The notes under the pieces are model-generated. The model made no database searches and was not told the origin of the DNA. It was given only the letters and a program-made list of their open reading frames with translations. The position numbers were made by a program, and so were the translations under genes. From Bacteroidia bacterium (GTDB lineage: Bacteria; Bacteroidota; Bacteroidia; NS11-12g; UBA955), in assembly GCA_030158725.1 (NCBI GenBank), contig JAOASJ010000127.1, forward strand, positions 1,389 through 65,388: DNA of 64,000 nucleotides, written 5' to 3'. Positions 17,023-20,392 of this stretch are shown piece by piece (position 1 is the stretch's first letter; each line of letters starts with the position of its first letter).

Positions 17023-19194
17023 TTATTTCAAGAATAATAGATCGCGGTACTTAGGCAATTTCCAAGCATCGTTGTCGATTAGCTCTTCTAATTTGTCAGC
17101 GCTTTCGCGGATGCTGTCAAAATAAGGTTTTACTTTATCGCAATATGCTTTTGCTTTTTTATCTGCGTGGGTCAATTTGTTTGCTTTGATTCTTTCGTCA
17201 ACCATTTTGTTGTTGTTGTCCCAGATAGCATTCACATTGGCAGAGATTTCTTTTGCTAAAGTATATAAGCCTTTGTTTTCTGCTTTGGTTTGACCAATTC
17301 TATTAAGACCTTCAATGGTGTCGATTAATTTCTTTTGGTATTCAACAGCTGAAGGGATAACATAATTCTTAACCAATTCGCCTAAAATTCTACCTTCAAT
17401 TTGAATTTTCAACAAGTAGTTTTCAAATTTAATTTCGGTACGGGCTTCAAGTTCTTTAATGGTGAAGATGTTATTTTTAACAAACAAATCTTTGCTTGCT
17501 TTGGTGCTGTATGCATCTAAAGCATAAGGTGTGGTTTTGATGTTACTCAAACCTCTTTTGGTTGCTTCTTTTACCCATTCGTCACCGTAACCATTGCCTT
17601 CAAAAATGATTTTTTTGGTTGCTTTAACGTAAGATTTTAATACTTGTTCAATTGCTAGAAGTTTGTTGGTTTTCTTTTTAATTAAAGCATCTACTTCTTT
17701 TTTGAATTCTGCCAATTGATTACCTACAATAGTATTTAATACAATGATAGCGTTTGCGCAATGGTCGCTTGACCCAACTGCTCTGAACTCAAATTTATTT
17801 CCAGTGAAAGCAAAAGGAGATGTGCGGTTACGGTCTGTATTGTCTAATAGAATCTCAGGGATACGGTAAACACTAATTGTTTTTTCACTTACTTTACCTG
17901 TTTTAGCTGGCGTTTTAGCTGCTTGGAATTGGTTTAACACCTCACTCAAGGTACTTCCAATAAATACAGACATGATAGCTGGAGGAGCTTCGTTGGCGCC
18001 TAATCTATGGTCGTTGGCTGCTGTTGCAATACTTGCTCTTAATAAGTCAGCATGGTCGTGAACCGCTTTAATTGTATTGATAAAGAAAGTTAAGAACTGT
18101 AAGTTATCAATTGGGCTGTGACCAGGAGATAGTAAGTTAACACCAGTGTCGGTAATTAAAGACCAGTTGTTGTGCTTTCCAGAACCATTCACACCTTTGA
18201 ATGGTTTCTCATGCCAAATAACTTTTAATTTGTGTCTGCTTGCAACTGATTGCATAACATCCATTAATAGAGAATTGTGGTCGATTGCAATGTCAGCTTC
18301 TTCAAACATTGGTGCACATTCGTATTGACCTGGAGCAACTTCATTGTGTCTTGTTTTAAGAGGTATACCTAATTTAAGCGCTTCTTTTTCAAAGTCTGTC
18401 ATATAGTTGTATACTCTTTCAGGGATACTGCCAAAATAGTGGTCTTCTAATTGTTGACCTTTCGCTGGCATATTGCCAACCAAGGTTCTACCTGCAAATA
18501 CCAAGTCAGGTCTTTGGTGGTATAGTTCCTCATCAACTAAGAAATATTCTTGCTCAATACCTAGAGATACTTTAGTATTCTTAACGTTTGCATCGAAATA
18601 TTGACAAACCGCTGCAGTGTTTTGGGTTAAGAAATTGGTTGATTTAATTAAAGGTGCTTTGTAGTCAAGAGCCTCACCAGTATAGGCAACAAAAATGGTA
18701 GGAATGCATAAGGTTTTACCACTTGCTTTTTCCATAATAAACGCCGGAGAAGAAGGATCCCAAACGCTATAACCTCTTGCTTCAAATGTATTTCTAATTC
18801 CACCATTAGGGAAACTAGATGCATCTGGTTCTTGTTGAACCAATGCTTTACCGGTGAAAACTTCAATACCTGTATCAATTCCTGTTGGGTCAAAGAAAGC
18901 ATCATGCTTTTCTGCAGTAGAACCACGCAAAGGTTGGAACCAGTGGGTGTAGTGGGTAGCACCTTTTTCGATGGCCCAATTTTTCATACCTTCTGCAATT
19001 TGGTCCGCCATTTTGCGGTCCATTTGTTTGCCGGTATTTCTTGATTCATTTACAGCCTTGATGGCTTCTTTACTAACGAATTCGGCCATTGCTTTTGGTC
19101 CGAAAACACTTTTTCCGAAGTACTCTGATATCTGTTTCATTTGTTTGTGGGATGGTTTCTCTTGAATTAAATTCTTACTTGATGTTGAAGACAT
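17023..19194 (-). CDS. glnA: Glutamine synthetase type III
   Basis: This GSIII enzyme joins ammonia to glutamate using ATP. At 723 residues it has the size of the GSIII class, much longer than GSI or GSII. Recognisable blocks are the N-terminal GSIII domain with FGPKAMAEF, the TLVGNMPAKGQQ region, the metal-binding EVAPGQYECAP block, the ATP-binding KGVNGSGKHNNWS block and the ARFR-equivalent NRTSPFAFTGNKFEFRAVGS block. The start at 19194 was chosen because a TAnnTTTG element lies 18 bp before it. An in-frame ATG at 19251 lies upstream of that element. It is divergent from a Fic-fold gene with an inverted repeat between them. Confidence 0.96.
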   Translation of the reverse strand: MSSTSSKNLIQEKPSHKQMKQISEYFGKSVFGPKAMAEFVSKEAIKAVNESRNTGKQMDRKMADQIAEGMKNWAIEKGATHYTHWFQPLRGSTAEKHDAFFDPTGIDTGIEVFTGKALVQQEPDASSFPNGGIRNTFEARGYSVWDPSSPAFIMEKASGKTLCIPTIFVAYTGEALDYKAPLIKSTNFLTQNTAAVCQYFDANVKNTKVSLGIEQEYFLVDEELYHQRPDLVFAGRTLVGNMPAKGQQLEDHYFGSIPERVYNYMTDFEKEALKLGIPLKTRHNEVAPGQYECAPMFEEADIAIDHNSLLMDVMQSVASRHKLKVIWHEKPFKGVNGSGKHNNWSLITDTGVNLLSPGHSPIDNLQFLTFFINTIKAVHDHADLLRASIATAANDHRLGANEAPPAIMSVFIGSTLSEVLNQFQAAKTPAKTGKVSEKTISVYRIPEILLDNTDRNRTSPFAFTGNKFEFRAVGSSDHCANAIIVLNTIVGNQLAEFKKEVDALIKKKTNKLLAIEQVLKSYVKATKKIIFEGNGYGDEWVKEATKRGLSNIKTTPYALDAYSTKASKDLFVKNNIFTIKELEARTEIKFENYLLKIQIEGRILGELVKNYVIPSAVEYQKKLIDTIEGLNRIGQTKAENKGLYTLAKEISANVNAIWDNNNKMVDERIKANKLTHADKKAKAYCDKVKPYFDSIRESADKLEELIDNDAWKLPKYRDLLFLK

Positions 19195-19212
19195 TCTCGA
19201 TTTATTTGCGTG

Positions 19213-19220
19213 CAAAATTA
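19213..19220 (-). promoter_or_regulatory. -7 promoter element of glnA
   Basis: CAAAATTA on the top strand reads TAATTTTG on the gene strand and lies 18 bp from the glnA start at 19194. Confidence 0.55.
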
Positions 19221-19291
19221 GGTGATTCGAATTAAAATCAAATGATGCCAATCACTGAAAAACAGAAAAAAGTTTAATTATTTCAGTTAAA

Positions 19292-19320
19292 ATGTCGAAA
19301 ATTGTGAAATAATTCGACAT
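19292..19320. promoter_or_regulatory. Perfect 8-bp inverted repeat, candidate operator
   Basis: ATGTCGAA (19292-19299) and TTCGACAT (19313-19320) form a perfect inverted repeat with a 13-bp spacer. The half-sites are 21 bp apart centre to centre, two helical turns. The right half touches the -7 element of the Fic-like gene, so a bound dimer would block that promoter. It lies about 70-100 bp upstream of the glnA promoter. Confidence 0.55.
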
Positions 19321-19327
19321 AAATTTG
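19320..19327 (+). promoter_or_regulatory. -7 promoter element of Fic-like gene
   Basis: TAAATTTG matches TAnnTTTG exactly. It overlaps the last base of the inverted repeat and also the TTG that opens the downstream frame, so the true start codon of that gene is uncertain. Confidence 0.45.
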
Positions 19328-20392
19328 ATAAATAGTCAATTACCACATAATCAGTTAAAACCACTCAACGAGTTAAAAATAGCAAATCAAATTGATCTGA
19401 ATTTCGCTTCAGAATCTTGTTGGAAAGCAATCTATCATTTGAATGGATATGTGGATGCACAGATTAGTAATGGCATACAAAATTTCTTTAATTTAATTGA
19501 ATTGATAGATGGCAAATATTCTTTTGATTTGGAGGGTATATCTATATCCGTACAACGTTTGTTAGAGGCCTATTCTTCAGAGAATAATCTAAATGAAATC
19601 AATGCCAAATTGATATTAAAGTCTATTGAATGGAAAGATGAAATTGATTCACTTACAGTTCAGAATTTAGCGCCAACATTTATGTTTCAAAACAAAAGGC
19701 AATCGGAGCTATTTAGAGAAAAGAAAGAGCTGAGAGTTCAAAGCTATTTTACCAATCTCTGTTTGTATACAACCCCTAATAATCCAAGTTTGATTCAGTA
19801 TTTAAAGGAAGATTTGGATAAGGGGCTGAAGCAAATGAACAAAACCAGTAGCCTACAGAATTTGGCTTTATTGCATTATCAATTCCGTGCATTGTCGCCA
19901 TATACTGTAATGAATGGTCACAGTGCACGAACCTTATCAAAGCTATTTTTAAGAGAAAATGGCTTGTTGTATAACTGTCTCCCAATTTCTTCAGTTTTAT
20001 TTAAGGATAAAGAAAGCTATAATTCACTCTTAAGGGAGGTTTTGATTCATCGCAGTTTTGAAAAATGGATACTATTTATGATTCAGAGTATTGAGGACTC
20101 AGCTATTCTTTTATTAGAAAAAACCAGATCATTTATACAACTTCGGAAGAAATTTAAAGACCAATTGGAAAAATATACCGATTATTTTTTACCTGCCGAT
20201 GAGCTATTGGAGGTGTTGTTTTTGAAACCATATATCAAACCCAAAATGATTTGTTCAGCATTGGGTTGCCACAGACAAACCGCTTATACGTATTTAGACC
20301 ATATGGTAAAAATGGGATTGTTACTGGAGAAATCTTCAGGTAGAGAAAAATTATACCTCAACAAAGAGTACTCAGATTTATTGAATTTGTAG
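19325..20392 (+). CDS. Fic-fold protein with degenerate active site and winged helix
   Basis: Numbering is from TTG at 19325 (355 residues). The Fic_N-like region carries an S66xxxE70-G71 segment that matches the inhibitory motif of class II Fic proteins. The core helix aligns with HPFxxGNGRxxR but reads SPYTVMNGHSAR (191-202). The catalytic His is Ser, the first Arg is His and one Gly is Met, while Pro, Asn, Gly and the last Arg remain. The preceding HYQF (184-187) is typical Fic. The C-terminus (about 297-355) is a winged helix with CHRQTAYTYLDHMVKMGLL. Fic enzymes usually transfer AMP to proteins. This one probably cannot, or uses other chemistry. DNA binding is plausible. The start codon is unclear: no ATG lies near the 5' end. 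Confidence 0.8.
   Translation: MINSQLPHNQLKPLNELKIANQIDLNFASESCWKAIYHLNGYVDAQISNGIQNFFNLIELIDGKYSFDLEGISISVQRLLEAYSSENNLNEINAKLILKSIEWKDEIDSLTVQNLAPTFMFQNKRQSELFREKKELRVQSYFTNLCLYTTPNNPSLIQYLKEDLDKGLKQMNKTSSLQNLALLHYQFRALSPYTVMNGHSARTLSKLFLRENGLLYNCLPISSVLFKDKESYNSLLREVLIHRSFEKWILFMIQSIEDSAILLLEKTRSFIQLRKKFKDQLEKYTDYFLPADELLEVLFLKPYIKPKMICSALGCHRQTAYTYLDHMVKMGLLLEKSSGREKLYLNKEYSDLLNL

Follow-up and report, generated by a model that had tools for sequence, protein, structure and literature searches.

A gene lying divergent from a type III glutamine synthetase gene (glnA), in a 64,000-nucleotide stretch of Bacteroidota DNA (the window), descends from SoFic, a class II Fic AMP-transferase of anti-phage defence (SO_4266/EcSofic; PDB 3eqx, 3zcn and 9tb0), and has lost the catalytic residues of that family. 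Comparison with its relatives makes it likely that the product, here called pseudo-Fic, is a catalytically dead, SoFic-derived, autoregulating transcription factor that probably also acts on glnA. Pseudo-Fic has the same architecture as SoFic over nearly the full length, with the inhibitory S-E motif and a SoFic-like C-terminal winged helix; unlike SoFic, it lacks the catalytic His, the phosphate loop and the Tyr, its conservation falls on the winged helix, and it stands beside glnA in 16/16 cases. The home genome is a 2.67-Mb draft from an uncultured member of the Bacteroidota, and all alignments and conservation figures were likewise built on draft genomes.

A SoFic homolog with a degenerate active site

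Pseudo-Fic (Table 1) matches SoFic across nearly its full length (PADLOC SoFic, 2.9e-38; NCBIfam NF046030, 2.2e-36), the solved SoFic structures match it at about 1e-22, and its C-terminus scores above the cut-off of Pfam SoFic-like_C (PF21248; 52.9 bits, cut-off 27). Judged by these profile and structure-sequence matches, which give a Fic domain followed by a C-terminal HTH, the full-length homology is far beyond chance, and the Fic descent and C-terminal winged helix proposed in an earlier sequence-only reading of this DNA both hold. The NF046030 score (125.6 bits) falls short of the curated cut-off of 550 bits, which is non-discriminating here because none of the SoFics in 395 genomes of the class reaches it. 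The TTG start occupies the alignment column of ATG in several orthologues. Structure prediction of the whole protein from two sequences gave a pLDDT of 38 and the model was discarded; the winged helix predicted alone gave a weak model (pLDDT 63) whose best Foldseek matches are SoFic chains (E 0.006-0.02). A scan of the genome contigs returned one relative only, and a search for plasmid-borne copies yielded just Fic proteins at <60% identity.

The hallmark of SoFic as a class II AMP-transferase, HPFx[D/E]GNGRxxR with its His, is not present in pseudo-Fic. Compared with HPFxDGNGRTGR, the corresponding SPYTVMNGHSAR has His replaced by Ser, Phe by Tyr, Asp by Val, the first Gly by Met, the first Arg by His, Thr by Ser and the third Gly by Ala, keeping Pro, Asn, the second Gly and the last Arg; the earlier claim that the catalytic His, one Gly and the first Arg are replaced is thus borne out. 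The residues that coordinate ATP in SoFic, E73, R206, H198 and Y241 (PMC12249575), align with E70, R202, S191 and N233, which leaves the inhibitory Glu in place with its Arg partner but removes the His and Tyr; overall, most nucleotide-binding residues are gone. The kept Glu belongs to S66xxxE70G71, which conforms to the N-terminal (S/T)xxxE(G/N) inhibitory motif, as the sequence-only reading had recognized. Measured against CccR-like repressors, pseudo-Fic has an inverted repeat of 27 bp at its own promoter and lacks the catalytic residues of an active Fic toxin. Because the defining catalytic motif is absent, and despite its SoFic descent, pseudo-Fic does not belong under the SoFic AMP-transferases or the defence genes, though PADLOC would name it SoFic.

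Table 1. Features of the pseudo-Fic locus, in window coordinates
Feature	Position	Strand	Basis and remarks
Type III glutamine synthetase glnA, divergent neighbour	17023..19251	-	First ATG 19194; Pfam GSIII_N 7.6e-73; beside pseudo-Fic in 16/16
Conserved TAATTTTGCA, -7-like element (TAnnTTTG) of putative glnA promoter	19211..19220	-	Island in intergenic alignment
Candidate operator TGTCGAA-N13-TTCGACA, 27 bp	19293..19319		Conserved in genus; intergenic alignment
Pseudo-Fic CDS	19325..20392	+	355 aa, TTG start; ORF, SoFic homology, 16 intact orthologues
Class II inhibitory motif S66-F-D-L-E70-G71	19520..19537	+	Aligned with SoFic S/E73
Beta-hairpin flap, residues 136-152 (...NLCLYTTP)	19730..19780	+	Mean identity 66% among full-length members; short clade has it deleted
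Degenerate Fic motif SPYTVMNGHSAR, residues 191-202	19895..19930	+	No catalytic His in 16/16 orthologues; His in 70/70 distinct SoFics outside the clade
C-terminal winged helix, residues 290-350	20192..20374	+	Pfam SoFic-like_C 4.3e-14; orthologue identity 58% vs 41% in active SoFics; weak model
Recognition helix, residues 312-327 (around CHRQTAYTYL)	20258..20305	+	70-72% identity

Pseudo-Fic orthologues accompany glnA throughout the genus

Type III glnA was found in 16 of the 17 genomes of the genus, and every one of these 16 holds an intact pseudo-Fic gene divergent from it, so the window gene is not a single decayed copy; in the seventeenth genome, an incomplete draft, neither gene was seen. 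A profile of the orthologues run over 246 genomes scored at least 339 bits inside the genus and at most 167 bits outside it, where the matches inspected were ordinary SoFics with HPF, and a maximum-likelihood tree placed the 16 orthologues in one clan (100/100). The alignment and linkage surveys that the sequence-only reading had called for came out in its favour: the catalytic His is lost from all 16 orthologues, homologs that keep HPFxxGNGRxxR occur outside the genus only, and linkage to type III glnA is 16/16. Residue 191 is S, A, G or K across the orthologues, the GNGR loop and the Tyr corresponding to Y241 are gone from every member, and no alternative conserved catalytic set takes the place of the motif in any of the 16.

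The orthologues comprise 11 full-length proteins and a short clade of five (323-328 aa) without the flap and the Fic motif. S66, E70 or D70, N197 and R202 are retained together in all 11 full-length members; the residues at these four positions in the short clade are A, D/E, Q/N and N/M. As far as the alignment goes, this joint retention speaks for a structural link more than for a conserved nucleotide sensor, and the S-E-R triad that persists could equally well be a structural remnant. In four short-clade orthologues (L042-L045, in genomes G014, G004, G007 and G006) no ATG, GTG or TTG fits the N-terminus; the frame appears to begin at ATT, at a place where the G016 orthologue has TTG.

A related genome bears on the origin of the locus. 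In a genome of another genus of the same family (G022; L100:1-2565), glnA stands divergent from an ABC transporter gene with nothing between them, and this transporter gene is the same one that lies downstream of the Fic gene in the window. Because of this apparently empty site, the pseudo-Fic gene was probably inserted between glnA and its divergent neighbour, loss of the gene in G022 being a possible alternative. In most of the other genera of the family that we looked at, a potassium transporter or other genes occupy the position.

Conservation falls at the active site and rises in the winged helix

Most full-length orthologues are only 36-42% identical to the window protein, while the adjacent glnA products are 85-91% identical. 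The dN/dS of pseudo-Fic is 0.04-0.08 where computable, with dS saturated, which indicates that the gene is under purifying selection; intact frames together with these values led us to reject pseudogene decay. We compared where conservation falls in active SoFics, full-length members and all members, using mean pairwise identity. It drops from 95% to 49% and 34%, respectively, in the 12-residue Fic motif, and rises from 41% to 72% and 70% in the recognition helix and from 39% to 71% and 74% in the wing. C315, H316, R317, T319, A320, Y323 and L324 are invariant in the recognition helix (alignment A1). On these alignments, selection in the pseudo-Fic lineage has left the active site and now bears on the winged helix.

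A conserved candidate operator and its probable pairing with the recognition helix

The intergenic alignment contains two conserved islands. One is TAATTTTGCA, which we take to be a TAnnTTTG-type -7 element of the glnA promoter from the general Bacteroidota promoter consensus; the other is the candidate operator dyad, which sits at pseudo-Fic's own promoter, about 75-100 bp from the glnA promoter. All 11 full-length members have the dyad 4-6 bp upstream of the start codon. In the five short-clade members the distance is 14-25 bp and the dyad is weaker (8-13 of 14 positions matched). Its half-site centres are 21 bp apart, corresponding to two helical turns. In pattern searches, on which all operator counts rest, the exact 12-base dyad turned up once in the home genome and in none of 22 genomes from outside the genus. 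A search for a wider regulon found 84 two-mismatch sites in the genus against 65 for the reversed-pattern control, a small excess, and the extra sites inspected were mostly within coding sequence. An RNA hairpin at the dyad was also considered; it could form but would be weak (-10.1 kcal/mol, z -2.1), and the covariation described below favours a dyad that is read as DNA.

To relate winged helices to operators more broadly, we grouped the upstream regions (140 bp) of 70 SoFics outside the clade by recognition-helix type. With p values that overstate independence, since proteins of the same helix group share kinship, at least two TGTCCA/TGTTCA half-sites were found upstream of 20/20 genes with SRTT helices versus 1/50 others (p 1.3e-16), and TCATGTA upstream of 8/9 with SRITA helices versus 0/61 (p 1e-9). 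GAGGGC accompanied KT[VAS]G helices in 6/15 cases and no other type. TGTCGA occurred solely upstream of genes with RQTA-type helices (2/5 versus 0/65), which is the type found in pseudo-Fic (HRQTA). Between proteins this far apart, however, most of the upstream DNA should have been randomised. Among active SoFic genes (L017-L030, L127-L140 and L177-L236), upstream dyad half-sites track helix type, with xNTAKK helices additionally paired with TTTGACA. The pattern suggests that self-repression may be general among SoFic genes, and the pairing of the SoFic winged helix with a dyad upstream of its own gene bears on how this anti-phage toxin stays quiet, a question left open by the 2025 EcSofic paper. 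For pseudo-Fic, the helix/half-site covariation across SoFics lends indirect support to binding of the dyad as a dimer and to repression there, and together with the conserved candidate operator it favours the transcription factor role that the sequence-only reading had put forward.

Proposed mechanism and competing readings

We propose that, in the ancestor of the genus, a SoFic-type gene encoding a Fic domain and a winged HTH came to separate glnA from the gene divergent to it, as the empty site in the related genus would imply, that AMP-transfer activity was then lost, and that the protein would now serve as a dedicated DNA-binding regulator. By analogy with SoFic and CccR, a homodimer would set its two C-terminal winged helices on TGTCGAA-N13-TTCGACA by its own start codon and repress its own promoter, and it would probably modulate the divergent glnA promoter as well. 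The Fic domain would provide dimerisation and a scaffold body and may relay a signal, contact with GlnA being one possible route.

The position of the dyad, which overlaps the start region of the Fic gene and leaves about 75 bp to the -7 element of glnA, would also suit a pure autoregulator that binds its own operator only and works through protein-protein contact, for example with glutamine synthetase or another partner, leaving glnA transcription uncontrolled. SoFic-type genes generally bear such dyads without glnA beside them, and the two-mismatch site search in the genus revealed no regulon beyond the locus. A self- or partner-only protein, however, needs no particular neighbour, and the divergent glnA linkage is fixed in 16/16 genomes, including five in which the other neighbours differ; we consider this reading unlikely. 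It is on this fixed linkage that we judge control of glnA by pseudo-Fic to be probable, the 75-100 bp spacing being compatible with activation, repression or no effect. Greater doubt attaches to a sensor in which ATP/ADP or glutamine would occupy the former Fic pocket and shift the winged helix, so tuning glnA to the state of the cell, even though the position of the SoFic C-terminal domain differs between apo and ATP-bound states (PMC12249575) and S66, E/D70, N197 and R202 persist in the full-length members. No member keeps the catalytic His or an equivalent of Y241, and the phosphate loop has lost its first Gly and its first Arg in every case; ATP sensing is disfavoured because this loop and the Tyr are lost throughout. 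Moreover, the five members without the flap, the inhibitory Ser66 and the last Arg, R202, still keep the winged helix and their place by glnA, so the ATP or glutamine sensing suggested by the sequence-only reading found no support.

The fast evolution of the Fic part alongside a slowly evolving glnA could also be expected of a decaying SoFic defence remnant, or of an enzyme with new, His-independent chemistry. Sixteen intact frames, the low dN/dS and the conservation of both winged helix and operator argue against either, and a new enzyme would be hard to reconcile with the variable position 191 and the want of a substitute conserved catalytic set among the orthologues; we give these ideas very little credence. 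The autoregulating, probably glnA-directed transcription factor thus remains our preferred reading.

Relation to known systems

A literature search for a Fic-derived dedicated regulator without catalysis found none, and we know of no such protein; a search for accounts of how type III glnA is controlled in Bacteroidota likewise found none. Pseudo-Fic is a candidate regulator for this gene. A direct precedent is CccR of Yersinia pseudotuberculosis, which acts as a dimer on inverted repeats to repress its own promoter (PMC9755527); it shares with pseudo-Fic the Fic-HTH architecture, the own-promoter inverted repeat and the class II inhibitory motif. CccR differs in having AMP-transferase activity, in being a secreted toxin and in the longer operator, with 10-bp arms and a 26-bp spacer (PMC9755527), whereas pseudo-Fic has no catalytic His and a 13-bp spacer; by analogy, pseudo-Fic may correspond to the regulatory half of CccR with the toxin half missing. 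SoFic too is a dimer, and EcSofic dimerises through its N-terminal helix alpha1 (PMC12249575). In the part of the work on CbFic2 of Coxiella burnetii cited here (PMC10628234), a C-terminal winged HTH binds DNA and promotes dimerisation, by which the Fic activity is regulated; pseudo-Fic has a C-terminal winged helix for which DNA binding is predicted, but CbFic2 is catalytically active and that part reports no specific operator, whereas pseudo-Fic is predicted to be catalytically dead and has a specific, conserved candidate dyad. According to the cited portions of the NrtR and BtAraR studies (PMC4666351, PMC6800001), these Nudix-related proteins, the latter from Bacteroides, join an enzyme-type domain to a winged helix as dedicated regulators; their fold is unrelated to that of pseudo-Fic, and effectors are known for some NrtR members.

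The lineage forms a graded series in which the active site is lost while DNA recognition tightens. Among its members, proteins without the His that keep the flap and the S-E-R triad, followed by proteins from which flap and motif are gone, may represent living intermediates. The wider proposal, that a Fic enzyme was domesticated genus-wide into a regulator of type III glnA with such intermediates surviving, and that SoFic winged helices follow a readable recognition-helix-to-operator code, strikes us as evenly poised between right and wrong.

Further dyads in one genome of the genus

Genome G008 contains dyads away from the glnA locus. On contig C8 (L161:1952-1978), a predicted lipoprotein-like gene has a one-mismatch dyad about 22 bp upstream of it and is a possible extra target in this genome only. 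On contig C63 (L160:1958-2203), the contig end carries the N-terminal fragment of an ordinary SoFic, and the stretch just upstream, which separates it from an XRE-type gene, holds copies of the pseudo-Fic-type dyad. This case speaks for the preferred reading, but it was reached through the dyad motif itself and so is not an unbiased test. Another G008 contig starts with a C-terminal SoFic fragment whose helix reads AHRQTASSWL, and the two fragments appear to be parts of one gene.
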